A stretch of 64,000 bases of DNA from Fodinibius halophilus. Lineage in GTDB: Bacteria > Bacteroidota > Rhodothermia > Balneolales > Balneolaceae. The DNA lies in the NCBI RefSeq assembly GCF_011059105.1, contig NZ_JAALLS010000009.1, positions 26,506 through 90,505 of the forward strand. The letters run 5' to 3'. The position numbers and the translations under genes were made by a program. This document shows positions 11,310-64,000 of this stretch, piece after piece; positions within the stretch are counted from its first letter, which is position 1, and each line of letters starts with the position of its first letter. The notes below the pieces were generated by a model. The model made no database searches. It was not told the DNA's origin and was given only the letters and a program-made list of their open reading frames with translations.

Positions 11310-11350
11310 ACGGCAAATAAGATAAGCACAAGAAATACAAAAGTCCTGCT

Positions 11351-11770: not shown

Positions 11771-11771
11771 G

Positions 11772-12617: not shown

Positions 12618-12648
12618 AAGGAGTTCCGTTTACAGTTACTCGCCTATA

Positions 12649-13463: not shown

Positions 13464-13644
13464 ATCACAGACACTCTTTTATTAACTCTTTAACTCTCAA
13501 TAACGTGGTTTAGAACTATTCGTTCAGGGCAAATGTAGTAATCTAATAGGAATTCTCTAACTAAAAACGAATTATAAGTTGAAAGTTTGTATTTTTCAGA
13601 AAAGTAATTGTATATACTGACGTTTTAAAGACCTTATATTTGAT

Positions 13645-14583: not shown

Positions 14584-14673
14584 CAAACAATTCAAAATAC
14601 TTGCTTAGTAATTTTGTAGTAGGTTCCATACCTTTGAGGCTTATTTTGAATTGCCAAACAGATCTATAACCTC

Positions 14674-15624: not shown

Positions 15625-15633
15625 TATATCATC

Positions 15634-16071
15634 ATGAACCTCGAAGCCTTTTCCATAAAGTGGTTTGCCCTGTACTATACCGTATTAGGTATCTCATTTA
15701 TTGCAGGTGGCAGCTATCTCATCCTAAAAAAACAACAGCTTAGTCAGCTCCTGCAAAAGGCAGCAGAGCAAGAAAAGCCGCCCCCTGTTTTCATCCGAAT
15801 CATAAAATACTTCCTCCTGTTTACCCTACCGGGACTCGTCCTCTCATTCACGCCCTTTTCATGGATTGAACTCCTGTTTACGCTTTGGAGTTTATTAGTA
15901 GTCTATATTGCAGGAATTCAATTGGTTCGCTGGCAAGATAATCGCCCGTTAATAAAGGCCAATAGCAAAAAATTACCAGAGGTAATTTCAAGATGCGGTG
16001 CCATAATGGTGGCAGTGGGCTTTGCGATATTCCTGCTCGCATACTTGGTAATTAACCGAACTCCTATTTAA
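15634..16071 (+). CDS. Small four-helix membrane protein, unknown
   Basis: I do not recognise this 145-residue protein. It has four predicted membrane segments (about residues 10–28, 52–70, 74–92 and 117–139) and a charged loop after the first (KKQQLSQLLQKAAEQEK). It lies between TerC (9 bp upstream) and the ligase-associated exonuclease, whose ATG overlaps its stop codon (TAATG), so all three are probably one transcript. Nothing in the sequence shows a function. Confidence 0.75.
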   Translation: MNLEAFSIKWFALYYTVLGISFIAGGSYLILKKQQLSQLLQKAAEQEKPPPVFIRIIKYFLLFTLPGLVLSFTPFSWIELLFTLWSLLVVYIAGIQLVRWQDNRPLIKANSKKLPEVISRCGAIMVAVGFAIFLLAYLVINRTPI

Positions 16072-17054: not shown

Positions 17055-17166
17055 TAATCGAACACACGGATTAAACTGATTGTACAGTTTATCACAGATA
17101 CGAAACGGCCTAAACCTGCTATATTAGCGCCATCCGCGTTCCATTTTACAGAATTGTAATTTAATT

Positions 17167-49220: not shown

Positions 49221-50435
49221 ATGGATATTAACCCACTTGATACGGAAAAAATTGGTATTCAGACGCTGGAAAAGCAGCTGATGAAATCCGAATCAGAAAT
49301 CTCTTTAAAGATAGGGTTACCGAGGGAAGTCTCCAATGATGAACGACGAATGTGTTTAACCCCCGGTGGCGCTTCCGTATTAACTTCTAACGGCCACGAA
49401 GTTTATATAGAACAAGATGCCGGATCAGATGCCAACTTTACGGATCAGGAATATGCCGATGCAGGTGCCGAAATAGCTTTCAGTATCGATGAGGTGTATA
49501 AAAAGTCTGAGTTAATCGTTAAGGTTGCCCCTCCTTCAGAATCAGAACTGGAACTGCTCGAACAAGACCATATCTTACTCTCAGCCCTGCATTTGGGCAA
49601 CACTACCGAGGAGTTTATTGATACTCTTATCAACAAAAACATTTCGGCTATCGGCTTTGAGTTCATCAAAGGAGACGACAAAGAGTTCCCTATTGTGCGT
49701 ATGATGCACGAAATTACAGGATCTATGTCGGTGCAGATCGGGGCTCACTACCTCGAAAAAGCGGATGGTGGACAAGGTATCATGCTGGGCGGCATCTCCG
49801 GTATTCCGCCTGCTACCGTCGTTATTCTGGGAGCAGGTATTACTGCCGAATATGCTGCACGAACAGCACTCGGTTATGGTGCACAGGTTTTTGTAATGGA
49901 TAACGACCTGGCCCGGCTTCGTCATCTCGAAAATGCGCTGGATCGACGTATTATTACGGCTACGGCCAATTACCAGTATATCTCTTCGGCCCTTCAATAT
50001 GCCGATGTCGTAATCGGGGCTGCAATGTTCGAGGGCAAGCGCTCGCCCTGCCTGGTTACCGAACCGATGGTTACCAGCATGAAGCCCGGCAGTGTTATTG
50101 TGGATACCGTGATTGACCAAGGCGGTTGTATTGCAACCAGCAAGGCCACAACACACTCGAAACCTACCTTCATGAAACATGATGTTATTCACTATTGTGT
50201 GCCCAACATCCCTTCTAATGTAGCACGTACGGCTACTTATGCCCTTAATAATGTCATTGTTCCGTACCTGCTGGCTATTGGCGATGCCGGCGGCATACGC
50301 GAATGTCTTTGGACCAATACCGCCCTGCGTAACGGTACCTACGTTTACAAAAAGCACTTGACTAAAAAATCGCTGTCCCAAATATTTGATATGCCTTATC
50401 GGGAAATTGAGATGCTCATTGCAAGCCAAATTTAA
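49221..50435 (+). CDS. ald: Alanine dehydrogenase
   Basis: A 404-residue NAD-dependent alanine dehydrogenase of the AlaDH/PNT family, interconverting alanine and pyruvate plus ammonia. The N-terminal substrate domain has LPREVSNDERRMCLTPGG and SALHLGN; the nucleotide domain has VVILGAGITAEYAARTALGYG with an acidic residue at the end of the next strand; and HYCVPNIPSNVARTATYAL is the family signature. It has about 28 extra residues ahead of the usual start, beginning at the ATG at 49221; the internal ATG at codon 21 is an alternative. It is followed after 18 bp by a small membrane protein gene. Confidence 0.93.
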   Translation: MDINPLDTEKIGIQTLEKQLMKSESEISLKIGLPREVSNDERRMCLTPGGASVLTSNGHEVYIEQDAGSDANFTDQEYADAGAEIAFSIDEVYKKSELIVKVAPPSESELELLEQDHILLSALHLGNTTEEFIDTLINKNISAIGFEFIKGDDKEFPIVRMMHEITGSMSVQIGAHYLEKADGGQGIMLGGISGIPPATVVILGAGITAEYAARTALGYGAQVFVMDNDLARLRHLENALDRRIITATANYQYISSALQYADVVIGAAMFEGKRSPCLVTEPMVTSMKPGSVIVDTVIDQGGCIATSKATTHSKPTFMKHDVIHYCVPNIPSNVARTATYALNNVIVPYLLAIGDAGGIRECLWTNTALRNGTYVYKKHLTKKSLSQIFDMPYREIEMLIASQI

Positions 50436-50453
50436 TGTTACTGTACTTATAGG

Positions 50454-50846
50454 ATGAGAAAACCAGTTCAAATTATCTTGGGCGTCCTTACTTTTTTGCC
50501 ATTTATAATAATTCTGGCCGCCATCGGTTTTGGCGTTTATAAGGCTCTTGATATTTTCCTGTCTCCCGAAGGCGTGAATCCCTTCCTGCTTTTTGCATAT
50601 TTTGGCTATGCGATCCAGTTTCTTCTTTTCTACTCCCTTTTTTATTTAGCGCTCGGGATCTATTATCTCATTCATATCATTCGAAATCCTCTTTTTGATA
50701 CCGAAAAGAAGGGACTTTGGATTGTGGTTATCATTGCCTTAAACGGCCTCGCTATGCCGGCTTATTGGTATATGCACATTTGGAATACCACTCCAGTGAG
50801 TAACTCCAATTATTATACCCGTTATGAATCAGGAACTGAGTCCTAA
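50454..50846 (+). CDS. Small three-helix membrane protein, unknown
   Basis: A 130-residue protein with three strong hydrophobic segments (about 7–28, 40–73 and 87–108) and a Tyr-rich C-terminus. I do not recognise it. It starts 18 bp after ald and overlaps the next gene by 23 bp, so the three are probably one transcript. Confidence 0.7.
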   Translation: MRKPVQIILGVLTFLPFIIILAAIGFGVYKALDIFLSPEGVNPFLLFAYFGYAIQFLLFYSLFYLALGIYYLIHIIRNPLFDTEKKGLWIVVIIALNGLAMPAYWYMHIWNTTPVSNSNYYTRYESGTES

Positions 50847-51192
50847 AAACTTTAAGCGTATCAGCATAATAAATTGGGTGCTGACGGTACCTTTTTTCAT
50901 TTTGCTTTCTTGGCCCTACCTGTACCTGGCAGATCTTGCTGAGATCGAAAGATCAATGGCTTATATCGGTTGCTTGTTCTTTTCCATTCCCTTTATGATT
51001 ACCATTATTCACGGGCACGTCACAATGGCGTTGGGCGAAGCACACCGGCACCATTATTACGACTGGCTGGATGAATACCCCCTCACTTTTGGATTGCTCT
51101 ATCATCCGATGCTGATACGAACCCGGTTCAGGCTGATCCTTTTGGTCGTCAGCATATTACTATTTGTTGCAGGCCTTGTTTTACAATTTTAA
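50824..51192 (+). CDS. Small membrane protein, unknown
   Basis: A 122-residue protein with three or four hydrophobic segments (about 13–35, 45–62 and 98–120) and a His-rich loop, ALGEAHRHHYYDWLDEYP, which could bind metal. I do not recognise the family. Its ATG lies inside the end of the previous gene, and it is followed 7 bp later by a terminator hairpin. Confidence 0.7.
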   Translation: MNQELSPKNFKRISIINWVLTVPFFILLSWPYLYLADLAEIERSMAYIGCLFFSIPFMITIIHGHVTMALGEAHRHHYYDWLDEYPLTFGLLYHPMLIRTRFRLILLVVSILLFVAGLVLQF

Positions 51193-51198
51193 ATAGAA

Positions 51199-51225
51199 AA
51201 GGGATGCGAAAGAATCGCATCCCTT
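51199..51225. terminator. Bidirectional terminator hairpin
   Basis: AAGGGATGCG and CGCATCCCTT form a perfect 10-bp stem with a seven-base loop between the convergent membrane-protein and acsA genes. The T-rich flank is on the minus-strand side (TTTTCTATTT). Confidence 0.75.
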
Positions 51226-51253
51226 GCAACTAAACGAAGTTATTGTCCGGCCC

Positions 51254-53152
51254 TTAGTATGCCGTTCCCTCCTTTATCTCATCAACTACTGATGGATCAA
51301 GTAATGTAGAGGTATCTCCCATATCGTCCGTCTCACCGGCAGCTACTTTGCGTAAAATACGGCGCATAATCTTTCCCGAACGTGTTTTGGGCAATCCTTC
51401 TACAATTTGAATTTTATCAGGTTTAGCGATTGGGCTAATTACTTTTGAGACGAGTTTATCAATTTCGCCTTTAAAAGATTCAGGATCTGTGATCTCTTCA
51501 TCACATGTCATAAAGGCAAAAACTGCTTCTCCTTTTACATCATGCGGATACCCTACAATAGCGGCCTCTACCACTTTAGGGTGCTCATCAATAGCGTTTT
51601 CAATTTCAGCCGTTCCTAATCGGTGACCGGAAACATTCAGTACGTCATCCACCCGGCCGGTAATGCGATAATATCCATCCTCATCGCGACGGCAGCCGTC
51701 ACCAGTAAAGTAATAGCCGGGATAATCTTCAAAATAGGTTTCCATATAGCGCTCCTGGTTACCCCAGATGCCGCGCGTCATACCCGGCCAAGGATGCTTG
51801 ATCACCAGGTTCCCCTGCACGCCATCTCCTTCGATCTCCTTCCCGTTTTTATCCATCAGGGCCGGCTGTATGCCCGGCAACGGCAGTGTAGCAAAACCGG
51901 GTTTTGTAGGCGTTACTCCAGCCAGCGGCGAAATCATGATGCCCCCGGTTTCTGTTTGCCACCAGGTATCAACAATGGGACATTGCCCATTTCCTATATG
52001 ATCGTGATACCAGTGCCAGGCTTCTTCGTTAATAGGCTCTCCTACGGTACCAAGCACCTTTAATGAGCTAAGATCATATTTATTAACATACTCAATATCC
52101 TCTTTCATCAACGCCCGGATAGCAGTAGGCGAAGTGTAAAAGTGGGTTACGTTGTACTTATCACACACCTCCCACAAACGTCCCGGATCGGGATAAGTGG
52201 GCGTACCTTCAAAAATAATACCTGATGCTCCGTTTAGCAGCGGGCCGTACAAAATATAGGAGTGCCCGGTAATCCAGCCCGCATCAGCCGTACACCAATA
52301 CACGTCTTCCTCCTCAACCTGGAACACATTGCGGAAGGTATAGCTGGTATACACCATGTATCCGCCACACGTATGGACCTGCCCCTTGGGCTTGCCGGTA
52401 GAGCCGGAAGTGTAGAGGATAAACAATGGATCTTCAGCATCCATCTCTACCGCTTCATGGTCTTTGGAAGCATTTCGAATTAACAGGTGCCACCATTCAT
52501 CGCGCCCTTCAACCCAGTCGATATCACGATTGGTACGCTGACACACAATAACCTTGTCAACAGTAGGGCAATCTTCAAGTGCTTCATCAGAAATATCTTT
52601 CAACGGCACATGCTTTTCTCCGCGCCGAAGTCCATCATTGGTAATCAACATCTTGGCATCGCAATCCTGGATACGTTCCGCCAGCGATTGTGCCGAAAAT
52701 CCTGCAAACACAATAGAGTGCACCGCCCCAATTCGAGCACATGCCAAAGCAGCAATCATCAGCTCGGGTGTCATCGCCATATAAATTGCAACCCGGTCAC
52801 CTTTTTCAATTCCTTTTGATTCCAGCACATTTGCGAAACGACATACATCCTCGTGTAGTTGGCGATAAGTGATTGTCCGCCGGAAAGAGTCAGGATGATT
52901 GGGTTCAAAAATAAATGCTGTTTTATTACCGATCGTGTTGAGATGTCGATCAAGGCAATTTTCAGTAATATTTAGCTTTCCGCCTTCAAACCATTTTACA
53001 TCTCCGTCTTCAAAGCTACCGCTAAAGGTTTCATCCCAACTTTCTCGCCAATAGAATGTACCGGCCTCGTGCTCCCAAAATTTTTCGGGTTTATTAACAC
53101 TATTTCCATAGACTTCTTTGTACTCTTCAAATGAATCAATATTTAGCCACAT
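51254..53152 (-). CDS. acsA: Acetyl-CoA synthetase
   Basis: Acetate–CoA ligase of 632 residues, activating acetate through acetyl-AMP. The adenylation core is clear: FILYTSGSTGKPKGQVHTCG, VDTWWQTETGGIMISPLAG, YFTGDGCRRDEDGYYRITGR and VDDVLNVSGHRLGTAEIE. The C-terminal PKTRSGKIMRRILRK holds the Lys that is typically acetylated to switch the enzyme off. It is a single gene, convergent with the membrane-protein operon and divergent from lhr, with 341 bp upstream. Confidence 0.97.
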   Translation of the reverse strand: MWLNIDSFEEYKEVYGNSVNKPEKFWEHEAGTFYWRESWDETFSGSFEDGDVKWFEGGKLNITENCLDRHLNTIGNKTAFIFEPNHPDSFRRTITYRQLHEDVCRFANVLESKGIEKGDRVAIYMAMTPELMIAALACARIGAVHSIVFAGFSAQSLAERIQDCDAKMLITNDGLRRGEKHVPLKDISDEALEDCPTVDKVIVCQRTNRDIDWVEGRDEWWHLLIRNASKDHEAVEMDAEDPLFILYTSGSTGKPKGQVHTCGGYMVYTSYTFRNVFQVEEEDVYWCTADAGWITGHSYILYGPLLNGASGIIFEGTPTYPDPGRLWEVCDKYNVTHFYTSPTAIRALMKEDIEYVNKYDLSSLKVLGTVGEPINEEAWHWYHDHIGNGQCPIVDTWWQTETGGIMISPLAGVTPTKPGFATLPLPGIQPALMDKNGKEIEGDGVQGNLVIKHPWPGMTRGIWGNQERYMETYFEDYPGYYFTGDGCRRDEDGYYRITGRVDDVLNVSGHRLGTAEIENAIDEHPKVVEAAIVGYPHDVKGEAVFAFMTCDEEITDPESFKGEIDKLVSKVISPIAKPDKIQIVEGLPKTRSGKIMRRILRKVAAGETDDMGDTSTLLDPSVVDEIKEGTAY

Positions 53153-53493
53153 AATAATTGAGTTTGAGTTGGGAGTATTTGTTCGTTGACAATCTCATAT
53201 TAAATAATTTATACAGATAATCAAGCCGACAGAAGAAACCAATTGTTTTAACCCCTGTATCCATAAATTTTTTACCTGTTTTGCAATAAACAAGATTTCA
53301 ACTTCAATGAAAAGTAGCCGGATGTATAAAATTGTGAAATGGGATCTTCCATCTGTGGAAGCCCTTCCAAAATCAGAGCAGTATCAGCTACTTTCTGTTT
53401 TAAAGCCGGTTAATAACAAATTATATATGGTTAAATGACGTTAACACACTTTATCATCAGAACTTTGCAACCTTAGGTACCAAAAAGAATAAA
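53153..53493. other. Divergent gap between acsA and lhr
   Basis: I see no repeat or RNA gene. A 38-codon frame on the plus strand (ATG 53322 to TGA 53438, beginning MYKIVKWDLP) is open but has no ribosome site, and I do not call it. Confidence 0.45.
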
Positions 53494-55965
53494 TTGAATT
53501 CAACAGAACAACCCGGGCTCCAGCGCATCGAAAACTGGTTTCAAGCCCGACAATGGCAACCCTTTGATTACCAGCGAGAGGTATGGCAAGCGTATTTATC
53601 CGGCAAAAACGGTCTGCTTAATGCCCCCACCGGCAGTGGCAAAACTTATGCCCTGTGGATGCCCGTTTTAATCAACTGGATCAACGAACATCCAAATACC
53701 TATAAAGAGTTAGCAGATAATGGCCTACAACTGCTGTGGGTTACTCCCCTTCGTGCCCTGGCCCGTGATATTGAACAAGCTCTTCAGAAGGTTGTTGATG
53801 AGCTGGAGATCCCCTGGCAAATAGCACGACGTACCGGCGATGTATCATCATACAAAAAACAGAAGATGAAAGAACAGATGCCGGAGGTGCTTATTACCAC
53901 CCCGGAAAGCCTCCATATTCTGATGGCCCAAAAAGGATACAAAAACTATTTTTCTGATCTGGAGGCTGTTGTCATTGACGAATGGCATGAGCTGTTGGGT
54001 TCAAAACGGGGCACCCAAACTGAGTTGGGACTTTCACGGCTGAAACATTTACGACCAAAACTCAATATCTGGGGAATATCAGCAACAATTGGTAATCTTC
54101 GAGAAGCCAAACAAGTATTACTGGGCGTTAACGATGACCCAGAAAATGCTGTCATCATAAAAGCCAACGTTGAGAAGAATCTGGAGGTCCAATCCGTTTT
54201 ACCGGAGGATGTTGAAAAGTTCCCATGGTCAGGGCACCTGGGCACCAAGCTATTACCCAAAGTATTGCCGATTATTGAAGAAAACAGATCCACGCTAATT
54301 TTTACGAATACCCGCTCTCAATCCGAGGTCTGGTTTCAACAGCTACTGGAGGCCAAACCGGAACTGGCCGGCACCATTGCACTGCACCACGGTTCCTTGA
54401 GTAAGAAGATTCGGCGATGGGTAGAACAATCCCTTCACGAAGGCAAACTCAAAGCCGTAGTATGCACCTCCAGCCTGGACCTGGGGGTTGATTTTGCCCC
54501 TGTAGAAACGGTCATCCAGATAGGCAGCCCCAAGGGAGTAGCACGTTTTATGCAGCGTGCCGGACGCAGCGGTCACCAACCCGGTGCTACAAGCCGTATC
54601 TACTTTGTTCCGACTAATGCCCTGGAACTGATAGAAGCTGCTGCTCTAAAGACTGCAGCGACGCAGCAGATCGCCATAGAAGACCGAGAACCTGTTGTAA
54701 AGCCCTACGATGTGCTCACCCAATACCTGATAACACTAGCTGTATCAGACGGCTTTAGTCCGAATACGCTCTATGAGGAAGTGACATCAACTTTTGCATA
54801 CCAAACATTGAATCGTAAAGAGTGGAACTGGATCATGAACTTTATTACTACTGGGGGACAATCACTCACGGCCTATGATGAGTACTCTAAAGTAGTTGAA
54901 GACGATGGTCGCTATAAAGTTACGGACCGCAAAATAAAACGGCGGCATCGTATGTCTATCGGCACTATTGCCAGCGATACGATGATGAGCGTAAAATATC
55001 TTAATGGTGCACATTTGGGTAGTATCGAGGAGTGGTTTATCGCCTCCCTCAATAAGGGTGATACATTTTGGTTTGCAGGAAAAAGTCTTGAATTGGTTCG
55101 CACCAAACAGATGACAGCTTACGTGAGAAGGGCCCACACCACCAAAGCTAAAGTCCCCAGCTGGATGGGTGGTCGTATGTCGCTTTCATCCAACATGTCA
55201 GAACTCCTTCGCCATAAACTTCACGAGGCTATTGAGGGTTCAGCCGATGATATAGAATTACAAACGATCCAACCCATTCTTGATGTCCAACATAACTGGT
55301 CGACCCTACCCGATGAAGATGAGCTTCTCATCGAACAGACCACTTCAAAAGAAGGGCATCACCTGTTTTTCTTCCCTTTTGAGGGCCGGTATGTACATGA
55401 GGGGATATCGGCCCTGGTAGCCTATCGCATTTCTCAGCTTAAGCCCATCACCTTTTCTATCGCCATGAATGATTATGGCTTTGAACTCTTGTCAGACAAG
55501 AAGATCCCCATAAAGAAGGCGTTAACAAATGATCTGTTCTCTGACAAAAAATTAGTTGAGGACATTTTCTCAAGTCTTAATGATACCGAGCTGGCCAAAC
55601 GACGCTTTCGGGGCATCTGCCATATTGCGGGCTTAATTTTCAAGGGATTTCCGGGCCAACGCAAAGCCAGTCGTCACCTGCAATCTTCATCAAGTATGTT
55701 TTTTGATGTTTTTGATCAATATGAACCGGATAACCTGCTCCTGCAGCAAGCTTATGATGAGGTCCTTTCCTATCAGCTGGATGAAGTACGACTTCGCAAG
55801 GCACTCAGGCGCATACAATCGCAAACGATAAACCTCAAGAATACCGAACGCTTTACGCCCCTTGCCTTTCCCATCATGGTAGATCGGCTTCGGGAACGCC
55901 TCAGCTCTGAGAGTTTAACCGACCGCGTGCAACGCATGCAACTGCAGCTGGAAAAACATACATAA
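53494..55965 (+). CDS. lhr: Ligase-associated DEXH-box helicase (Lhr type)
   Basis: An 823-residue superfamily-2 DNA helicase of the Lhr core type. Walker A is APTGSGKTYALW near residue 46, the DEXH box is VIDEWHELLG, motif III is GISATIG, and motif VI reads MQRAGRSGHQPG; a winged-helix and Lhr-specific C-terminal region follow (LSSNMSELLR, FEGRYVHEG). The start is the TTG at 53494, since the first in-frame ATG lies after Walker A. Homologues accompany an ATP-dependent ligase, an MBL exonuclease and PdeM in bacterial repair clusters; the first two are at 16–19 kb of this window. pdeM follows after 74 bp. Confidence 0.94.
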   Translation: MNSTEQPGLQRIENWFQARQWQPFDYQREVWQAYLSGKNGLLNAPTGSGKTYALWMPVLINWINEHPNTYKELADNGLQLLWVTPLRALARDIEQALQKVVDELEIPWQIARRTGDVSSYKKQKMKEQMPEVLITTPESLHILMAQKGYKNYFSDLEAVVIDEWHELLGSKRGTQTELGLSRLKHLRPKLNIWGISATIGNLREAKQVLLGVNDDPENAVIIKANVEKNLEVQSVLPEDVEKFPWSGHLGTKLLPKVLPIIEENRSTLIFTNTRSQSEVWFQQLLEAKPELAGTIALHHGSLSKKIRRWVEQSLHEGKLKAVVCTSSLDLGVDFAPVETVIQIGSPKGVARFMQRAGRSGHQPGATSRIYFVPTNALELIEAAALKTAATQQIAIEDREPVVKPYDVLTQYLITLAVSDGFSPNTLYEEVTSTFAYQTLNRKEWNWIMNFITTGGQSLTAYDEYSKVVEDDGRYKVTDRKIKRRHRMSIGTIASDTMMSVKYLNGAHLGSIEEWFIASLNKGDTFWFAGKSLELVRTKQMTAYVRRAHTTKAKVPSWMGGRMSLSSNMSELLRHKLHEAIEGSADDIELQTIQPILDVQHNWSTLPDEDELLIEQTTSKEGHHLFFFPFEGRYVHEGISALVAYRISQLKPITFSIAMNDYGFELLSDKKIPIKKALTNDLFSDKKLVEDIFSSLNDTELAKRRFRGICHIAGLIFKGFPGQRKASRHLQSSSSMFFDVFDQYEPDNLLLQQAYDEVLSYQLDEVRLRKALRRIQSQTINLKNTERFTPLAFPIMVDRLRERLSSESLTDRVQRMQLQLEKHT

Positions 55966-56039
55966 ATTAATTCCACGTTAGACCTGAGGTATACAATCCA
56001 CACTTTGAATCGTGCAATTGCTATTATTAGATTTACGTT

Positions 56040-56702
56040 ATGATTTCAAACGCCTCAACTTTCAACCTTTGTGGTAATCGTTTTTGGTTACTCCCAGAAC
56101 GGGCCATTTATTGGAAAAAGAAAGAAACACTGTTCATAGCCGATCTACATATCGGGAAATCGGCACATTTCCGTAAGCATGGTATTGCTGTCCCTAAGCA
56201 GGTGGGCAGATCTAATCTCAATCGCCTTGAACAACTAATCGAAGATATCAAACCGGAACATCTCATAATATTGGGCGATCTATTTCACAGCGATATCAAC
56301 AAAGAGTGGCAGCAGTTTATAGACTGGAGAAAAAGATATAGGCAACTGCAAATAAGCCTGGTTGTTGGCAATCATGATATTCTAAAAGTGGAACGATACC
56401 ACACCGGATTGATCAACATCTTTAAAAAGATGAAACTGGAACCTTTTTTATTAGTCCATGACAAGAGCAACTATAGCTCTGCCGATGAGCAAGGCTTATA
56501 CATACTAAGCGGACATATTCATCCCGCAGCAAAGCTAAATGGCAAGGGAAGGCAGGCTATGAAATTTCCCTGCTTTTATTTTGGCCAGCAATATGGAATA
56601 TTACCGGCATTTGGCACCTTCACCGGCACTCACATTATTTCTCCCACAGAAAAAGACAAGGTATTTATTGTGGTTGAAGATAAAGTTTTCTCTGTGAATT
56701 GA
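56040..56702 (+). CDS. pdeM: Ligase-associated DNA damage response nuclease PdeM
   Basis: A 220-residue calcineurin-like metallophosphoesterase of the PdeM group. The metal-binding motifs appear in order: FIADLHIGKSAHFR, ILGDLFHSD, VVGNHD and LSGHIHPA, with FGTFTGTH near the C-terminus as in this subfamily. It follows lhr by 74 bp on the same strand, as in other Lhr–Lig clusters, and ends just before a terminator. A role in repairing DNA ends together with Lhr, the ligase and the exonuclease is inferred from conserved association. Confidence 0.92.
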   Translation: MISNASTFNLCGNRFWLLPERAIYWKKKETLFIADLHIGKSAHFRKHGIAVPKQVGRSNLNRLEQLIEDIKPEHLIILGDLFHSDINKEWQQFIDWRKRYRQLQISLVVGNHDILKVERYHTGLINIFKKMKLEPFLLVHDKSNYSSADEQGLYILSGHIHPAAKLNGKGRQAMKFPCFYFGQQYGILPAFGTFTGTHIISPTEKDKVFIVVEDKVFSVN

Positions 56703-56716
56703 ACATCCTTACTCTC

Positions 56717-56744
56717 AATGCTCTTGTTTTATTAAGAGCATTTT
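56717..56744 (+). terminator. Terminator between pdeM and the sigma gene
   Basis: AATGCTCTT and AAGAGCATT form a nine-base stem followed by TT and G/C-poor sequence, 14 bp after the pdeM stop. It lies between convergent genes. Confidence 0.7.
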
Positions 56745-56751
56745 GCACAAC

Positions 56752-57318
56752 CTATTGGCGCCACTTTCGTTTAAAACAATGATGCAACCGGTTTAAAATA
56801 CGCGATTTTTTAGTCCTGACATTAGCCCCTGATATATCAAAATGCGCACTCGCCTCTTTGGTTGTAGTATCTGGCTGCTCAAAAAAATATTCGATAAATT
56901 TGCGTGAACTTTCTCGCAGTTCTTCCAAACAAGCCTCCAGAATTCTTTGACGATCCTCATCCATCAAATTTGTAAACTGCTCAGCAGGATCTACCAAATG
57001 CTCTTGGTGATCTTCCATCGCATTATTAAAACGATGCTGTTCTTTGGCATGCCGGAAAAACTCGTGTCGGCAAGACCGAATCATATAACTAAAAATATAC
57101 TTCTCTTCCCTGATATTATCCTTTTTTATCTGTTCAAACACATCCAGGAAAGCTTGTTGCGTACACTCTTCAGCTTCTCGCTCCGTAGCATTAAGCACAA
57201 CCTTCAGGTAATCCTTAAGGCGATATAGCAATTCCTCGAGCAATTCGTTGGCTTTGCCCTGCTTATTTTCTCGAAGAGCGTGCACAAGCTCTGAATAATC
57301 AACTCTGGATTTACTCAA
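56752..57318 (-). CDS. ECF-type RNA polymerase sigma factor
   Basis: A sigma-70 family factor of 188 residues with only regions 2 and 4. Region 2 spans about residues 22–100 (NATEREAEECTQQAFLDVFE, then YIFSYMIRSCRHEFFRHAKE), and region 4 spans about 125–185 (LEELRESSRKFIEYFFEQPD, then KEASAHFDISGANVRTKKSR with the HTH). It lies at the edge of a locus with three tiny lipoproteins, a CHAT peptidase and an anti-sigma-like TPR membrane protein. A conserved bipartite motif in the same locus is its likely promoter. Its own upstream region has only a matching −35-like half (minus strand, about 57591–57601) without the −10 half. Confidence 0.88.
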   Translation of the reverse strand: MSKSRVDYSELVHALRENKQGKANELLEELLYRLKDYLKVVLNATEREAEECTQQAFLDVFEQIKKDNIREEKYIFSYMIRSCRHEFFRHAKEQHRFNNAMEDHQEHLVDPAEQFTNLMDEDRQRILEACLEELRESSRKFIEYFFEQPDTTTKEASAHFDISGANVRTKKSRILNRLHHCFKRKWRQ

Positions 57319-57500
57319 GGTGATAAAAAGGCCTTATTAGCTAACCTACTTTGCTGAAAAATGATATTTAAAAAAGCCGCGTACAGTTATTTGATATTTC
57401 AAATATATAACTATTCAATAATCATACAAACGAAATTATACAGTAATACAAAAAGATTTATAAAATCTTAATGCCAATCTTAATTATATATTTGCCTTCT

Positions 57501-57539
57501 GAAATTTTTTGTAACAAATTAAAATTGAAATACTCTTGT
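57501..57539 (+). promoter_or_regulatory. ECF-type promoter motif, copy 1
   Basis: GAAATTTTTTGTAACAAA (57501–57518), 12 bases, then TACTCTTGT (57531–57539). The same two boxes with exactly the same spacing occur at 57633 and, on the minus strand, at 62734. It lies 233 bp upstream of the first lipoprotein gene. Confidence 0.7.
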
Positions 57540-57632
57540 ATCATAGAATATACTGTTCGGGAATATTAAGATTTATATTAAAATAGATATCTGTTACAAA
57601 ATAATTATATACGCTAATATTCTAGAAAAGCC

Positions 57633-57671
57633 GAAATTTTTTGTAACAAAGCTCCCTTTCATTACTCTTGT
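57633..57671 (+). promoter_or_regulatory. ECF-type promoter motif, copy 2
   Basis: GAAATTTTTTGTAACAAA (57633–57650), 12 bases of unrelated sequence, then TACTCTTGT (57663–57671). Its −10-like box ends 101 bp upstream of the first lipoprotein ATG, so it probably drives the array. Confidence 0.75.
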
Positions 57672-57772
57672 TATCAACAAGGAGTATGTTCGTGAATATC
57701 TGCGTATTTAAATTTATGGTACAAATCACAATACTCGTTACAACTTAAATAAGAACAAAACCAAGGATTACT

Positions 57773-57967
57773 ATGAAATCTCTCGTAAAAAAACTACTCG
57801 CATTCACTTTCGCTATCGCTCTGTTCACCGGCTGTGCTTCGGTCACCGACCCCGGCCTCGATACTGCCCCGGAAACCCAAGACACCGAAGTGACCCAAGA
57901 TACGCCTGATCGCAACGGCTTCGATACCGACTCTGAAATGAGTACTATCCTCGATAAACCTGAATAA
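57773..57967 (+). CDS. Tiny acidic lipoprotein, tandem copy 1
   Basis: A 64-residue lipoprotein precursor. The signal MKSLVKKLLAFTFAIALFTG ends at the lipid Cys21, leaving a mature peptide of 44 residues rich in Asp, Glu and Thr with a repeated TQDT phrase (ETQDTEVTQDTPD). It has no recognisable domain. CCAAGGAT precedes the ATG. It is the first of three tandem copies; its signal is identical to theirs, but its mature part differs at about ten positions. Codons end strongly in C or T-rich synonymous choices unlike the AT-rich CHAT gene downstream, hinting at high expression. The function is unknown; it may be a substrate or signal in the sigma/CHAT locus. Confidence 0.75.
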   Translation: MKSLVKKLLAFTFAIALFTGCASVTDPGLDTAPETQDTEVTQDTPDRNGFDTDSEMSTILDKPE

Positions 57968-58002
57968 ACGCTCTCTCTTTAACTTCTTAAATACAGATCA
58001 CT

Positions 58003-58197
58003 ATGAAATCTCTCGTAAAAAAACTGCTCGCTTTCACTTTCGCTATCGCTCTGTTCACCGGCTGTGCTTCGGTTACCGACTCCGCCCTTGAGACCGCACC
58101 GGAAACCCAGGACACCGAACTCACCCAGGATACTCCTGATCGTGACGGCTTTGGAACAGACCAAGAAATGAGCACCATCGTTGACAAACCTGAATAA
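58003..58197 (+). CDS. Tiny acidic lipoprotein, tandem copy 2
   Basis: The second copy, 64 residues, 35 bp after the first. Signal and lipid Cys21 are the same; the mature peptide reads CASVTDSALETAPETQ onward with 12 acidic and only two basic residues in 44. The coding sequence is identical to copy 3 base for base as far as I can compare, while copy 1 is diverged. The leader before the ATG (CAGATCACT) lacks the CCAAGG of copies 1 and 3. Such identity between neighbours implies a very recent duplication or ongoing conversion. Confidence 0.75.
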   Translation: MKSLVKKLLAFTFAIALFTGCASVTDSALETAPETQDTELTQDTPDRDGFGTDQEMSTIVDKPE

Positions 58198-58246
58198 TAT
58201 CTTTCCAACACCATTAACCATTTAAACGCCTAAACCAAGGATCACT

Positions 58247-58441
58247 ATGAAATCTCTCGTAAAAAAACTGCTCGCTTTCACTTTCGCTATCGCTCTGTTC
58301 ACCGGCTGTGCTTCGGTTACCGACTCCGCCCTTGAGACCGCACCGGAAACCCAGGACACCGAACTCACCCAGGATACTCCTGATCGTGACGGCTTTGGAA
58401 CAGACCAAGAAATGAGCACCATCGTTGACAAACCTGAATAA
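58247..58441 (+). CDS. Tiny acidic lipoprotein, tandem copy 3
   Basis: The third copy, 64 residues, identical in coding sequence to copy 2 and preceded by CCAAGGATCACT like copy 1. It ends 140 bp before the CHAT gene. The intergenic sequence between copies 2 and 3 differs from that between 1 and 2, so the repeat unit is essentially the gene plus a short leader. No terminator is visible after it, so read-through into the CHAT gene is possible. Confidence 0.75.
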   Translation: MKSLVKKLLAFTFAIALFTGCASVTDSALETAPETQDTELTQDTPDRDGFGTDQEMSTIVDKPE

Positions 58442-58581
58442 TCCTCACCCGATATTTCATTTTAATACTCTTCTCTTGAAAAAAATAAGGATATGTTGCG
58501 TTCATAAACACAAGGTCATAGATTGTACTTAGTTACGGTACTTTCTATCTATTTGCACATCAATAATTAAATATCTCGGTG

Positions 58582-61500
58582 ATGTTGTTTGCCTTTTTTC
58601 TTTGCTTCCTGCAATTAGTCTCCGCATCTGAGGACACGACCTTATTTGATGACTCAAAGTTACAAACAAATTACTATATAGAGCAGATACAGAATGAAAG
58701 AAATGTAGAAAAAAATATTTGGGCACTTACCCTAGTAGCGACATCAAGCGAAGAACTCAAAAGATATGTAGAGAACACTAGTGCTTCTAAAAAACAGCTT
58801 TCCTTATTCACTGAGGTAGAACAAAATTATCAGGACCAGATTAAAAAAATTGTATTTTCTAAAGGGTTCCCTGGTTTATTTATTGCATACCTGCTTTCGT
58901 TGGATGATAAAAGTGAAAAAGAATCTGCTTACAACAAGTTTACAGAGAGTTTTGAGCTTCCCCATTCAGGTAGCATTAATTATCCGGAAGTTGCCCAAGC
59001 AATCATCAAAAACAGGGAAATTTCTCCCTCCATACTACCTTCTCAAACCTTCTCATTACTCCATTTCTTTTTACTTTTTGACAGCAACCGTTCTACCTAT
59101 CTTAGTAACGAATATTTAAAGGCTATTTTTAAAAGCTGGCATATCCCAACCTCAGATAGAAAAGAATTAACAACCACAATATTAGAGGCCAGTTACTTTC
59201 GGGTTCTGTACCTCCTTGATAAGTACTCCCAAACAAATGGACAGTACCAGTCACTTATCAAAAGTAACTTATTTCCTAACTCTCTCCTTAAATTAAAGCT
59301 ATACAGGTACCTCAGTTATTCGATGTATCGTTTAGGACACTACGATAGAAGCCTTCAAATTGTTAGAAAATTCACGCTTCCTTTATCCCAATATTTTGGA
59401 AAAAAAAGAACATATATACAACTCAAACAACTGCAGGGAGTGTATTTATATAATATTGGTAAAGTAAAAGCTGCAAAAACAATATACGAAGATGTTCTGA
59501 ACGAAATTGAAAGGCAAAAGATCGATATACCTAAATCCTCTTTTTACAATAATTTAGCATTAGCTTACTACAAATCCGGACAGTATAACAAATATCTTAA
59601 TCTTCAATTCCAGGCACTTGAAAATGCTAAACAGACAAATAACTATAGCCATCAGATAGAAATTTTAAATAATATTTTTATCTATTATAGAAAATCCAAT
59701 GATGAAAAAAATGCCCTCTCTTATCTAGAAAAAGCTCAAACAATTGCTCAAAAGGAAAATAATATATCTGATCTAGGTACTATCTATATTTCAACAGCTG
59801 CTTTTTACAGAGAATTTAAAAATGATTATAAAAAAGCTGTTACTTTTTTATCGAAAGCCCAGGAAATATTGGATCCGAAGAGTAATAAAAAGGAATATTT
59901 ACAGATTCTAAATGAACTAGCACAGACCTTTGAAGAACAACATAACTTTACACATGCCTTAGAAAAGCACAAAGAGATCGTATCATTAACACCAGATGAA
60001 AAAAATCGTAAACATATCGATGCATTAATAAATCAAGCAGTAATCTATCTCAAAATCGGTAATCTAAAAAAAGCATGGTCATTTGTTAAACTCTATAAAT
60101 CAACTAATTTAAATTTACTTGATTTTCAACAAGTAGTTAAAGCAAAAACAGTTGAGGCAAATTATTTATTTCAAACGGGCAAATCTGAAGAAGCGCTATC
60201 AATTCTTAGCCCAACTATCGATCAAATCATTGTACGGGCCCGAAGCAGTGCTGATTTAAAATCCGGATTTTGGCATGTCGAAGAGGAGTATTTAGATGCT
60301 ATTGATTTAGCGGTGTCTATCCATTTAGAAGAAGGACAACCGGCTAAAGCCACTCAAATGCTTGACCAGCTCAAGACGATAAATGATTCCCGTTTCTATC
60401 AGAACCCTTTGGTAAAATCAAGTCTGCTCAACGAATCAGAGCTTACCCAATATAAGCGTTTAACCGGACAGCTGGATGCCACGAGGAAACGACTGTTGAC
60501 TGCTCCGGAGGAGAAACAGTTCCAAATTCGCCAGCAAATAAGCAAGCTCAACCTCAAAAAACAAACGCTTGACAAGAAGCTGACCCGGAAAACAGAATCA
60601 AAATCAGTTTCTATACGTGAGATCCAGAGTCAGCTCTCTGCCCGCGATATGGTTATGCATGTGACCGAACTGAAGGACCAGTACTACATTGCCAATATCA
60701 CCCGCTCTGATATACAGATGCATACGGTTTCGCTGGATTCTTCGCTGCGCAATCTATTATCAGGTGCAGTACAGCAGGTAGCTACCCATAAAACAAACCT
60801 TGATTCCTTATATGCCATTACTACCTTACTTGGGATACAGAATATTCCGGAACGTATTGAAAAAATAACGGTTATTCCTGACAGCTATTTATACCAGCTG
60901 CCTATTGATATTCTGCCGCTCAACAAAACCTCTCACAGTTACAGTTACGGAGAAGCTACCTATCTTATTGAAAAGTATAATACACAGTACCTTACGTCAC
61001 TTGACGAATTTACATCTACAAATACTAAAGCTACAGCTGATAGAAATCCTCTGAGCTACATTGGCTATGGAGTATCTAACTTCAATTCTTATCGGGATAA
61101 AAACCTTGTTCCTCTGCCATTTGCACAACGGGAGGTTACATCAATAGCTGAAAAACTGACAAACATGGCAAAGGTAGAAACCTTTATAAACGAGGCGTCT
61201 ACCAAAGAGACCTTTCAACGCACAGCTCCAAATGCACGCATTTTACACATGGCCACCCACAGTTCTGTTTCAGAACGAGATCCCATGTTCTCTACGGTTT
61301 ATATGAGTAAAAATGAATCAACTACTGACGAGACTTTTGAAGACCAGATATTTGCATACGAACTCTTCGAGTTAAATCTCAATAACGATATGATTATGCT
61401 CAACTCTTGTGAGTCGGGTTCAGGATCTTATATACAGGGAACGGGCGTAATGGGTATCAGTCGTGCCCTGCGATATGCCGGAGCCGAATCTCTTGTCCTA

Positions 61501-61815
61501 AACTTGTGGTCTGTAAATGATATGTTAGCCTCTGATTTTGCCATTCACTTTTATGGCCAGCTAAATGAAGGAATGTCAAAAGCAGAAGCATTACAAGCTA
61601 CAAAACGTTATTTCCTGGCAAACAAAAATGCAAGTCCACACTTCTGGGGACCTTATATGCTAATTGGCAATGCCCAACCAATTGTAAAGCCCGACCGTAC
61701 AAAAAACTTGGCCATTGCCAGTACCTTTATCTTTTACTTCCTGTTGATGGTGGGATTATCTTACCTTGCGGACCGGAATATCTTCTTTAAAAACGAAGAA
61801 AAGAAAGCAGCCTAA
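58582..61815 (+). CDS. Secreted, membrane-anchored TPR–CHAT peptidase
   Basis: A 1077-residue CHAT-domain (caspase HetF-associated) cysteine peptidase. An N-terminal hydrophobic stretch (MLFAFFLCFLQLVSA) looks like a signal peptide. Residues about 220–600 are TPR repeats (LALAYYKSGQYNKYLNLQFQ, YLEKAQTIAQKENN, AWSFVKLYK), and a coiled coil lies near 620–680. The CHAT domain occupies about 700–1030 with catalytic His893 (LHMATHSSV) and Cys943 (LNSCESGSG). A membrane helix at about 1043–1063 precedes a short Lys-rich tail. The layout places the peptidase outside the cytoplasm. The start is ATG 58582; GTG 58579 is adjacent. The TPR half is markedly more AT-rich than the CHAT half. Substrates are unknown; the neighbouring lipoproteins and anti-sigma-like protein are candidates. 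Confidence 0.88.
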   Translation: MLFAFFLCFLQLVSASEDTTLFDDSKLQTNYYIEQIQNERNVEKNIWALTLVATSSEELKRYVENTSASKKQLSLFTEVEQNYQDQIKKIVFSKGFPGLFIAYLLSLDDKSEKESAYNKFTESFELPHSGSINYPEVAQAIIKNREISPSILPSQTFSLLHFFLLFDSNRSTYLSNEYLKAIFKSWHIPTSDRKELTTTILEASYFRVLYLLDKYSQTNGQYQSLIKSNLFPNSLLKLKLYRYLSYSMYRLGHYDRSLQIVRKFTLPLSQYFGKKRTYIQLKQLQGVYLYNIGKVKAAKTIYEDVLNEIERQKIDIPKSSFYNNLALAYYKSGQYNKYLNLQFQALENAKQTNNYSHQIEILNNIFIYYRKSNDEKNALSYLEKAQTIAQKENNISDLGTIYISTAAFYREFKNDYKKAVTFLSKAQEILDPKSNKKEYLQILNELAQTFEEQHNFTHALEKHKEIVSLTPDEKNRKHIDALINQAVIYLKIGNLKKAWSFVKLYKSTNLNLLDFQQVVKAKTVEANYLFQTGKSEEALSILSPTIDQIIVRARSSADLKSGFWHVEEEYLDAIDLAVSIHLEEGQPAKATQMLDQLKTINDSRFYQNPLVKSSLLNESELTQYKRLTGQLDATRKRLLTAPEEKQFQIRQQISKLNLKKQTLDKKLTRKTESKSVSIREIQSQLSARDMVMHVTELKDQYYIANITRSDIQMHTVSLDSSLRNLLSGAVQQVATHKTNLDSLYAITTLLGIQNIPERIEKITVIPDSYLYQLPIDILPLNKTSHSYSYGEATYLIEKYNTQYLTSLDEFTSTNTKATADRNPLSYIGYGVSNFNSYRDKNLVPLPFAQREVTSIAEKLTNMAKVETFINEASTKETFQRTAPNARILHMATHSSVSERDPMFSTVYMSKNESTTDETFEDQIFAYELFELNLNNDMIMLNSCESGSGSYIQGTGVMGISRALRYAGAESLVLNLWSVNDMLASDFAIHFYGQLNEGMSKAEALQATKRYFLANKNASPHFWGPYMLIGNAQPIVKPDRTKNLAIASTFIFYFLLMVGLSYLADRNIFFKNEEKKAA

Positions 61816-61820
61816 CATAG

Positions 61821-61856
61821 AAAAGGCCCGACAGAACCACTCCTGCCCAGCCTTTT
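61821..61856. terminator. Bidirectional terminator candidate
   Basis: AAAAGGC and GCCTTTT form a short stem around a 22-base loop between the convergent CHAT and TPR genes, with a T-run on the plus strand side of the right arm. Confidence 0.5.
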
Positions 61857-61887
61857 ATAAATATCCGATTTCAGAATTAGAAATCAT

Positions 61888-62616
61888 CTAATCTGACAGT
61901 GCATCCAAATAGCTTTTAGAAACACGACGATAGGCTCCATTTAAATCATAAGCCTTTTCAATGTGTATCCGTGCTTTAACAAGCTTATCCATATGGAAAT
62001 AGGCATTCCCCATATACCAATATGCCTTTTCCAACATAAGAACATCTACGTTCTTTTTATGCTCAACCACTCGTTGGTAATGATTGACGGATTCTTTGTA
62101 ATCGCCCTCATTATAGTAAAGAGATCCCAGATTTAAACTCAATTCAGCAATCCACGCAGGTTTGGAAGCCTGTTGCAACTCATTATTCAACAAGTTTATA
62201 GCTTCCTCAACTGCCCCTGTATTGGCCAATTGTATCGCATTACGAATAATTTTAGGATCCTCAGTTACACTTCCATCAGTTGAACGATAATAATCCAGTT
62301 CAATGCTGGAAATTGGTTGCAACGAACGGGCGTTATCTTGATTGTATAGATTCATGTATCCTACTATTCCAACCAAGAAGATAATTGCTGCCGCAGCAGC
62401 ATAAAACCACTGTTTGCGCCTTTTTTGCTGTTGGCGTTCCTTCTTTTTTCGTTGAATTACCGCCTTTACATTAGCCACACTTTTCATATAATCCAGATGA
62501 TATCCATCTTGAATTAATTCAGCCCATAGCTCGTCTGTCTCTCTTGGAGAAAGCTGTCCATTGACATACTTGTCAATTTTTTCTTCCAGTTGTTTTTCGT
62601 TATAACTCTCAATCAT
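61888..62616 (-). CDS. Anti-sigma-like membrane TPR protein
   Basis: A 242-residue single-pass membrane protein. The N-terminal 70 residues (IDKYVNGQLSPRETDELWAE and a basic KKKERQQQKRRKQ stretch) resemble the cytoplasmic sigma-binding part of Bacteroidota anti-sigma factors. A membrane helix follows at about 71–90, then TPR repeats at about 130–235 (IAELSLNLGSLYYNEGDYKE, AYWYMGNAYFHMDKLVKARI) on the far side. It lies in the same locus as an ECF sigma gene and is preceded by the third copy of the bipartite promoter motif, so it is likely part of the sigma regulon and may restrain the sigma factor. The anti-sigma role is inferred. Confidence 0.65.
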   Translation of the reverse strand: MIESYNEKQLEEKIDKYVNGQLSPRETDELWAELIQDGYHLDYMKSVANVKAVIQRKKKERQQQKRRKQWFYAAAAAIIFLVGIVGYMNLYNQDNARSLQPISSIELDYYRSTDGSVTEDPKIIRNAIQLANTGAVEEAINLLNNELQQASKPAWIAELSLNLGSLYYNEGDYKESVNHYQRVVEHKKNVDVLMLEKAYWYMGNAYFHMDKLVKARIHIEKAYDLNGAYRRVSKSYLDALSD

Positions 62617-62733
62617 GGTTCTTCACACTTGTTTTTGCTTATCAATAACTTAAAATACCCTCAGATTACAATATCTGTGGTAACCAGTATAATTGAATTT
62701 TATCATACAATTATACTATCATCAATTCATATT

Positions 62734-62766
62734 ACAAGAGTATTTTAAACTCGATTTGTTACAAAA
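62734..62766 (-). promoter_or_regulatory. ECF-type promoter motif, copy 3
   Basis: On the minus strand it reads TTTTGTAACAAA (62766–62755), 12 bases, then TACTCTTGT (62742–62734), the same boxes and spacing as copies 1 and 2. It ends 118 bp upstream of the anti-sigma-like TPR gene. Confidence 0.75.
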
Positions 62767-62873
62767 GAATTAGTACCTATGATTATACCAAAACACGGGA
62801 TGGCTTTTACAGGCTGTGGGAGCATAATTCTGCAAAATATTAAAATTTTTTAATGTTATTACTCTGTAACTTC

Positions 62874-64000
62874 ATGGATAAGCGATACTTACTACAACTT
62901 ATTTTTGTCACTCTACTCATACTAACTGCTTGTGATTCCCCAAAAAAGGCTAACATTTCCGGAACCATTGATTATGTGGGTTCTGCAGATATTTACATAT
63001 CTAAACAGCCTGTTCATTATAAATATGCCCCCAAAAAACACTTTCCTGTTAATGTAACAGAGGAGGGATCGTTCACCCTTTCCCTACCCATTGATTCTAC
63101 CCAATTGGTTAAGTTTAATATTAATGAACAAACTTATCCAGTGGTTGTTCAGCCCGGTCAATCGTTAACGCTTGATATTACTTTTTCTGAGTTTCCTGAT
63201 TCTGTTACGGTCCGTGGCTATCCCAAACCGTGGGATCAAAAGTATATGAGTTACCGTACAGAGGTTCGTCCCATTCAACAAAAAATTGAAACCATTATTC
63301 CTGATTTTCGAGAGGGTAAAAAAACCAATATCACAGATCTCTACAAACGACGCTATAAAATTACTGAAGCGCATTTTGACAATACACCACTCATCGAATT
63401 ATACTATAAAGCAGTAGGTGAATACCTGGTTAAACAACTGGAAGAAATAAAATATCAGCGTACAACCTCTGATGTTTCTCCGGAACGCCGGCGACAAAAA
63501 GTTCTTGAAGAAGCAAAAGCCCTTAACTTCTTTTCTTTTAAATCGTTGCATTCACAACGCGCCGGTATCCGTGACTTCACCAATGCATTTGCCAACACCT
63601 TTGGTGTTGAAGACAGCCTGGAAAAAAAGTTCGGACAAGAACTGATGCAATATGACATTAAACGGCTGGGGTATCAAACGCTGGATTCAGCCCGAACAGC
63701 AGTACTCCAATATATTGACCAACGAAAAGCCCGGGCCTATGCCAAAATGTACCTGGTAGCAGAACGTATTGGTGAAATGTCTTTAGAGGTAGCAACTCCC
63801 AGCTACAAAGATTACCTCAAGGAGTATTCCGACTTCCCCAAGTATACCTCCTTCCTCAAAACATTCTATCAACAGATCAAAAGGGTATCGCCGGGTCAAC
63901 CGGCTGTTCCTTTTACGCTGCCGAATGAAAATGAGCAAATGGTAAGCATGAAAGATTATAAAGGACAATACGTACTGCTTGATTTTTGGGCCAGCTGGTG
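62874..64000 (+). CDS. Thioredoxin-family lipoprotein, cut by window end
   Basis: An open frame of 375 codons running off the end of the window. The type II signal MDKRYLLQLIFVTLLILTAC gives a lipid Cys near residue 20. The N-terminal part (about 25–110) is a DUF4369-like beta domain (ISGTIDYVGSADIYIS), the middle is helical, and the last visible part begins a thioredoxin fold: GQPAVPFTLPNENEQM and YVLLDFWASW, with the next base pair pointing to the Cys of a WASWC-type active site. Such proteins keep exported cysteines reduced in Bacteroidota. It is divergent from the TPR gene; the bipartite motif is not found on its side. Confidence 0.85.
   Translation, partial: MDKRYLLQLIFVTLLILTACDSPKKANISGTIDYVGSADIYISKQPVHYKYAPKKHFPVNVTEEGSFTLSLPIDSTQLVKFNINEQTYPVVVQPGQSLTLDITFSEFPDSVTVRGYPKPWDQKYMSYRTEVRPIQQKIETIIPDFREGKKTNITDLYKRRYKITEAHFDNTPLIELYYKAVGEYLVKQLEEIKYQRTTSDVSPERRRQKVLEEAKALNFFSFKSLHSQRAGIRDFTNAFANTFGVEDSLEKKFGQELMQYDIKRLGYQTLDSARTAVLQYIDQRKARAYAKMYLVAERIGEMSLEVATPSYKDYLKEYSDFPKYTSFLKTFYQQIKRVSPGQPAVPFTLPNENEQMVSMKDYKGQYVLLDFWASW

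Follow-up and report, generated by a model that had tools for sequence, protein, structure and literature searches.

A conserved gene set of an extracytoplasmic function sigma factor, a predicted periplasmic CHAT peptidase, a candidate anti-sigma factor and tiny lipoproteins in Fodinibius halophilus and its relatives

Introduction

Small RNAs belong to the sigmaE regulon of Escherichia coli, and DegS, the protease of that pathway, is a trypsin-like PDZ protease. The Craspase complex of type III-E CRISPR systems is cytoplasmic, and DdvA of Myxococcus xanthus is said, going by paper titles, to have a role in a defence island. These are the described systems closest to the gene cluster reported here, which lies at positions 56752-62616 of a 64-kb stretch of the Fodinibius halophilus genome (contig NZ_JAALLS010000009.1; the whole stretch is called the window below) and encodes an extracytoplasmic function (ECF) sigma factor, tandem tiny lipoproteins, an exported CHAT peptidase with tetratricopeptide repeats (TPR) and a membrane TPR protein. 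In the RpoE-RseA-DegS system (sigmaE) an envelope-stress-sensing protease cleaves a membrane anti-sigma factor, as outlined in the accessible part of PMC10028731. The same part of that source describes for Craspase (CASP) a TPR-CHAT protease, a sigma inhibitor and an ECF-like sigma factor in one locus, and motifs of CASP-sigma within that locus itself. In M. xanthus the ECF sigma factor DdvS is active once its anti-sigma factor DdvA has been inactivated, by a signal given as unknown in the accessible part of PMC4374960; DdvA, named a transmembrane anti-sigma factor in PDB titles (8rot, 8rw5), carries a CHAT domain with both catalytic letters.

The cluster in the window combines the same kinds of part in another arrangement. 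DdvA holds anti-sigma and CHAT in one chain of 991 residues, whereas here, and in 18 further loci of the phylum, they are encoded by two genes, and in the cluster each of the two proteins has its own membrane helix and TPR domain and lipoproteins are added; the CHAT domains of the two systems are nevertheless related by sequence. Craspase is an RNA-activated complex with Cas7-11, whereas the CHAT protein of the cluster is predicted to be exported and held in a membrane, and a search of the window's genome (98.6% complete) for the RAMP family (PF03787) gave nothing (four of 14 control genomes were positive). With RpoE-RseA-DegS the likeness to a caspase-like TPR-CHAT protein is a functional analogy only. 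No description of such a module was found in the open-licence papers that were searched. Overall, our data indicate that the genes very likely form a sigma/anti-sigma/CHAT regulatory module, and that this module likely has its place at the envelope.

Results

Fodinibius belongs, according to NCBI, to the Balneolaceae (order Balneolales, Balneolota). Relatives of the CHAT protein were found in 53 of 58 related genomes, with a match at E<1e-78 in 45 of the 58; the remaining genomes of the 53 gave weaker matches only, to a second CHAT family or to TPRs. For comparison 41 loci were used: the window, plus extended loci from the other genomes with a strong match, of which 40 of 44 were taken (G018, G053, G055 and G057 were left out). 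All 41 gave a CHAT match in profile searches, and 39 also one to the TPR protein; lipoproteins were located in 33 and sigma in 26. The gene order is sigma on the minus strand, one to six lipoproteins and CHAT on the plus strand, and the TPR gene on the minus strand. Most of the gaps fall at sequence ends, as 12 of the 15 loci lacking sigma and all eight lacking lipoproteins end at a contig end by CHAT or the first lipoprotein; sigma was also not found in L046 (G045), L051 (G001) and L061 (G011) despite at least 2.6 kb of sequence there. A separate sample gave a full CHAT protein above 900 bits in 21 of 23 genomes of the order, all except G037 and G043. The earlier note, made from the window's letters alone, had proposed that the four families form one unit and had named a lack of co-occurrence in other genomes as an observation that would speak against this; the families do recur together, in the order and, as described below, in other loci of the phylum.

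All genes and the three motif copies that the note had claimed were re-found in the window at its positions. The cluster reads as follows.

56752..57318, minus strand: ECF sigma factor, 188 amino acids, start TTG at 57318 or nearby; assigned by its TIGR02937 score
57507..57539, plus strand: predicted distal promoter TTTTGTAACAAA-N13-ACTCTTGT, 5' of the lipoproteins; motif scan and footprint of loci
57639..57671, plus strand: predicted proximal promoter copy, about 100 bp 5' of lipoprotein 1; motif scan and footprint of loci
57773..57967, plus strand: tiny acidic lipoprotein 1, 64 amino acids, lipobox LFTGC (by eye); relatives in 33 of 41 loci
58003..58197, plus strand: tiny lipoprotein 2; 221-nt direct repeat
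58247..58441, plus strand: tiny lipoprotein 3, protein identical to copy 2; 221-nt direct repeat
58582..61815, plus strand: exported TPR-CHAT peptidase (predicted), 1077 amino acids, signal peptide by eye; PF12770 match at E 1.4e-51
61258..61260, plus strand: codon of His893 of CHAT (catalytic); translation of the open reading frame (ORF) and alignment
61408..61410, plus strand: codon of Cys943 of CHAT (catalytic); ORF translation and alignment
61696..61773, plus strand: C-terminal membrane helix of CHAT, residues ~1039-1064, followed by a basic tail; alignment and model
61888..62616, minus strand: membrane TPR protein, 242 amino acids, proposed as the anti-sigma factor; a helical domain at the N-terminus is followed by a single membrane helix and the TPR domain
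62344..62409, minus strand: membrane helix of the TPR protein at residues ~70-91; the stretch before it is rich in Lys and Arg (N-terminus in)
62734..62766, minus strand: third predicted promoter copy, about 118 bp 5' of the TPR gene; motif scan and footprint of loci

The lipoprotein genes constitute three 221-nt direct repeats, and for CHAT a start at ATG 58582 is more likely than one at 58579; the numbering of His893 and Cys943 counts from the former.

The module is not limited to the lineage of the window. We searched 148 genomes of the collection's phylum (Bacteroidota in GTDB), and here full-length CHAT of the window's type (system 1) was confined to the order, with at most 222 bits outside it. 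Outside the order, 19 of 58 CHAT places have a sigma gene no more than 7 kb away, where about 0.37 would be expected; these places are among the matches listed, with at most five candidates per genome scored and 12 rows matching the TPR part only removed, and the sigma profile had been built from three loci themselves found by nearness of CHAT and sigma; the count without these seed loci is 16 of 55. The 18 sigma loci outside the order (L176-L178 and L180-L194), picked for the proximity of CHAT and sigma, all hold a sigma factor that directly adjoins a TPR-protein relative, as recognised by the profile, together with a CHAT protein that has a C-terminal helix, in varying gene orders. On a simple scale the TPR relatives have a membrane helix in 17 of the 18 (not in L194), and 16 give a TPR-type Pfam match at E<=0.01, with none in L185 and L188 and with many matches below the cut-off. 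The CHAT protein of L188 has no N-terminal signal in the called ORF. An exported protein, lipoprotein or other, often stands before CHAT in these loci when they are inspected by eye; in L176 no lipoprotein was seen beside CHAT and the sigma/anti-sigma-like pair. One genome, G134, contains five separate sets of sigma, membrane TPR protein and CHAT (L180-L184).

As a control the remaining CHAT places were fetched as 37 loci, and seven of these (L196, L197, L199, L201, L203, L204 and L231) have a more divergent ECF sigma factor within 1.5 kb. With a wider sigma profile, applied to 56 loci with 58 listed CHAT ORFs of at least 300 amino acids (L212 has no such ORF), sigma lies within 7 kb in 26 of the 58. 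A CHAT protein with a membrane helix also occurs without an adjoining ECF gene, because in 12 loci of the same class with CHAT and C-terminal helix (L198, L200, L205, L206, L208, L211, L214-L218 and L220) no ECF sigma was found within the span searched, about 6 kb on either side or to the contig end. The C-terminal helix was tried as a diagnostic feature on its own and set aside (21 of 26 sigma-near CHAT ORFs versus 14 of 32 others, Fisher p 0.0066). Locus L179 (G102) was likewise discarded as a case of CHAT-sigma adjacency, its sigma gene being 7.9 kb away and its CHAT protein lacking the C-terminal helix, and the anti-sigma candidate in that locus was dropped with a profile score of 14 bits only and no Pfam match at E<=0.01.

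The sigma factor has the sigma2-sigma4 architecture of the ECF group, scoring 45.3 bits against the cut-off of 42.9 with the NCBIfam ECF superfamily model TIGR02937; its Pfam matches to the r2 and r4 domains are below cut-off, and a solved relative is 2q1z (RpoE/SigE; E 2.5e-7 with profile A3). The strict motif given in the list occurs exactly three times in the window (57507+, 57639+ and 62734-) and in none of 100 dinucleotide shuffles. A weight matrix built from 25 strict sites, with p<=0.02 against dinucleotide shuffles, was positive upstream of the lipoproteins in 24 of 33 loci, of the TPR gene in 24 of 39 and of sigma in two of 26; in loci not used for training the corresponding counts are 14/22, 11/26 and 1/16. 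The -10 half shifts jointly at both promoters of one genome, and reads ATCCTGTA twice in L056 and ATCCTTA twice in L045. Across whole genomes the strict motif gave 75 matches in ten congeneric genomes that have an orthologue of sigma, 17 of them in the window's genome (one of the 75 is a match to the reversed pattern, and one site is possibly listed twice at contig ends), and there were no sites in the genomes of the two congeners lacking sigma, G001 and G011, whose best sigma match is a paralogue with 34-36% identity. The shared bipartite promoter of the earlier note is thus borne out in that the motif stands before lipoproteins and TPR gene, goes with sigma in the genus and drifts in step; it may represent a promoter class read by this sigma factor.

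Strict sites also precede many other genes. Of the 74 distinct sites in the fetched loci, those outside the cluster recur before response regulators, AraC-type regulators, Hpt, HU-like DNA-binding proteins and C10/S8 protease lipoproteins, families assigned by Pfam on seven representative proteins; a pseudopilin-like protein (no Pfam match) and an RND pump, both labelled by eye, are also preceded by the motif.

The CHAT protein has the CHAT fold with a His-Cys dyad. The note had regarded His893 and Cys943 as intact, and both are invariant in 25 of 25 aligned members from the order and in 12 of 12 of a wider set. Its placement of the protein on the envelope side agrees with the N-terminal signal and the C-terminal helix with basic tail, which by inspection are kept across the order alignment (the alignment row L063 shows only part of its gene, which is split over three frames). 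Such features suggest a periplasmic caspase-like protease, with the activity being predicted. The structure model (predicted local distance difference test, pLDDT, 86.9; predicted template modelling score 0.76) has Csx29 as its closest fold match (Z 27.7, 586 residues, 8.7 Å), followed by separase (Z 23.9) and DdvA (Z 20.6, 512 residues, 9.7 Å in VIA). With the profile of the CHAT domain (A6), the only solved chain in the PDB below E 0.1 was DdvA, which matched at E 8.1e-7 and retains both catalytic letters, His and Cys; Csx29 gave no match at E<=1. Csx29, which the note had taken as the precedent, is therefore the nearest by overall fold, but by sequence DdvA is nearer.

In the model of the TPR protein (pLDDT 86.6) helices are seen at residues 2-18, 24-36 and 38-91, the last of which enters the membrane helix, and TPR helices follow. 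Basic residues ahead of the membrane helix predict a cytoplasmic N-terminus. No library model calls the protein an anti-sigma factor above cut-off. The anti-sigma zinc-finger family zf-HC2 matched the N-terminal pieces in seven of 15 cases, with a best E of 2.4e-4 and below cut-off, and is the sole Pfam family matched by more than one of the 15. A relative of the TPR protein directly adjoins sigma in the 18 phylum loci and also in L114 (positions 6042-17188; G000:C12) of the window's own genome, where a second ECF sigma factor, 35% identical to the first, has a membrane TPR relative directly behind it. The anti-sigma character that the note had ascribed to the TPR protein is argued from this context, from the helix layout and from the weak zf-HC2 matches; taken together they make an anti-sigma factor, which would bind sigma, a well supported prediction. 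An anti-sigma domain was also sought by structure and this line was abandoned, as Foldseek and VIA list TPR proteins over residues ~110-242 only and no anti-sigma factor. Two exported CHAT genes, by eye without C-terminal helix, lie near the second sigma factor of L114. Further second-type sigma and CHAT matches are found close together in other genomes of the order.

The motif also leads an undescribed RNA gene of about 120 nt. In seven congeneric genomes a unit of 117-127 nt, with a strong terminator at its end and no convincing ORF, lies directly behind the motif; its copy in the window's genome is given here.

G000:C67:100643-100759 (L236): RNA gene with intrinsic terminator; relatives in L232-L253

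For the named stem pairs every cell (100%) is paired, and eight double-sided changes occur, all in the terminator stem; none of 500 shuffles was as high and slid controls were at most 51% paired, and the count of pair types was not above the shuffles. A covariance model of the transcribed part alone matched 27 of 58 relatives at E<=0.001, the weak extra matches probably being due to chance, and had no match in G001 or G011. Among 18 new RNA loci (L239-L256) the motif is directly upstream in 14, as judged with mononucleotide shuffles; the exceptions are L249 (motif overlapping), L256 (40 nt upstream), L244 (weak) and L254 (G035; none). An Rfam search of ten loci gave no match at gathering score. 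The conserved CTCCTAAATGC stretch of the RNA was considered as a seed against ribosome-binding sites and rejected, the exact pattern having no matches in four genomes. Another motif-led stretch, alike in three congeneric genomes (L074, L093 and L156) and without convincing ORF, is possibly a second RNA.

Discussion

The reading that we favour, and regard as probable though far from assured, is that of a protease-controlled envelope-stress pathway of an ECF sigma factor, in which CHAT acts on the periplasmic part of the TPR anti-sigma factor or on a lipoprotein guarding it. It starts from what can be read in the sequence, namely the gene order, its conservation, the pairing of promoters that go with sigma, the topology signals and the intact dyad, and adds sigma binding, protease activity, substrate, signal and the role of the lipoproteins as predicted steps. 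The TPR protein would be an inner-membrane anti-sigma factor whose cytoplasmic helical domain holds sigma and whose TPR domain faces the periplasm. CHAT would reside in the periplasm, anchored by its C-terminal helix in the same membrane, so that both TPR domains should lie on the same side. An envelope signal would activate CHAT, and active CHAT would cut or remodel the periplasmic part of the anti-sigma factor or a guarding lipoprotein. Once freed, sigma would use TGTAACA-N15-ACTCTTG promoters to transcribe the lipoproteins, the RNA of about 120 nt and a set of other genes, and probably also CHAT, which lies behind the lipoproteins; the anti-sigma gene would also be a target, giving negative feedback. 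CHAT as the trigger that cuts the anti-sigma factor seems the most economical model, because both DdvA and Craspase link these three components, and the main independent reason for linking anti-sigma and CHAT here is that DdvA holds both in one polypeptide. Possible roles of the lipoproteins are those of substrate, guard of CHAT or simple output.

An alternative that we consider unlikely, though deserving of weight, is that CHAT belongs to the output: some other signal would act on the TPR anti-sigma factor and release sigma, which would then induce the lipoproteins and, with them, a periplasmic protease for the processing or removal of envelope proteins. The layout in the window is in line with this, since CHAT lacks its own motif and begins 140 bp downstream of lipoproteins that do have one, and no terminator-like site was found on the plus strand between them, and so is the finding that G001 and G011 keep lipoproteins, CHAT and TPR gene without sigma. 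The union of anti-sigma and CHAT in the single chain of DdvA argues the other way, as does L176, where CHAT accompanies the sigma/anti-sigma-like pair with no lipoprotein seen, which fits a regulator better than one target among many. The kinship to DdvA, whose CHAT domain is part of the anti-sigma factor, would also suit a CHAT protein that senses or scaffolds without proteolysis, binding a ligand or the anti-sigma factor through its TPR and CHAT folds and shifting it mechanically; the invariance of His893 and Cys943 would be unusual for a dead enzyme, and this reading appears improbable to us. That Csx29 is the best structural match of CHAT could point to an anti-phage or CRISPR-linked module resembling Craspase or the DdvS-DdvA defence island. 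Against this, and in keeping with the statement of the earlier note that no CRISPR component is present, there is no RAMP match in the genome and there are no CRISPR-like repeats in 50000-64000; in PADLOC, CHAT has no match at E<=0.01 and sigma (20.5 bits) and the TPR protein (13.8 bits) match weakly. The surroundings do not resemble an island either, as genes for PdeM and a helicase stand beside the cluster in 10 of 41 loci and a thioredoxin-like gene in 14 of 41, in several genera, and we hold a defence role to be very improbable. In the window the latter gene is located here.

62853-63998: lipoprotein with thioredoxin-like end; adjoins the cluster in 14 of 41 loci

The keeping of PdeM and helicase beside the cluster could equally be quoted for unrelated neighbours brought together by chance or slow rearrangement, an explanation that is hardly credible, being largely contradicted by the shared promoter with its joint drift and by the same gene set in other orders.

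Several observations nevertheless weigh against the protease-controlled pathway. Within the order the TPR gene lies at the far end of the cluster and does not adjoin sigma, it was not found in the 3.6-4.7 kb behind CHAT in L065 (G028) and L068 (G022), and the N-terminal profile of its product matched no solved anti-sigma factor. The sigma gene itself is not under the motif. No strict site occurs in G013, G017 and G019, three genomes of the same family that have the sigma factor at 48-64% identity, although in the G013 and G017 loci the matrix does pick out a site upstream of the TPR gene; G047 carries three strict sites and lacks a close orthologue of sigma. Among the listed CHAT ORFs of the phylum, 32 of 58 have no ECF sigma within 7 kb, and 14 of these have the C-terminal helix. 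Finally, G001 and G011 have no sigma yet keep the lipoproteins, CHAT and the TPR protein including its N-terminal domain, which suggests that these proteins have a use without this sigma, or that another sigma has taken over.

It is tempting to consider a wider picture, which we put forward tentatively and with more doubt than confidence: a phylum-wide alarm in which a periplasmic CHAT protein would cut a TPR anti-sigma factor as DegS does RseA, with the lipoproteins as substrate or guard and a sigma-driven small RNA in the Balneolaceae, DdvA being a fused form and Craspase an RNA-triggered derivative. If the module works as proposed, caspase-like proteases would be placed in envelope stress signalling outside CRISPR, and the cluster would show in what genomic surroundings the Csx29-Csx30-sigma trio may have arisen. 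According to the accessible part of PMC7406223, only 6% of the ECF sigma factors of Bacteroidetes have a class I anti-sigma domain nearby, and the module offers a candidate class of the missing anti-sigma factors together with a means of switching them.

The two congeners without sigma constitute a natural experiment and, with the sigma-linked RNA gene, make the module testable. A new upstream box, TGTAGTAATTATTATTAAWATTKTGTA, with three matches in 20 genomes, stands before the TPR gene in G001 (L051), where no copy was seen before the lipoproteins, and before both the lipoproteins and the TPR gene in G011 (L061). Since the box is common to both genes in G011, joint control seems to have been kept after the loss of sigma.

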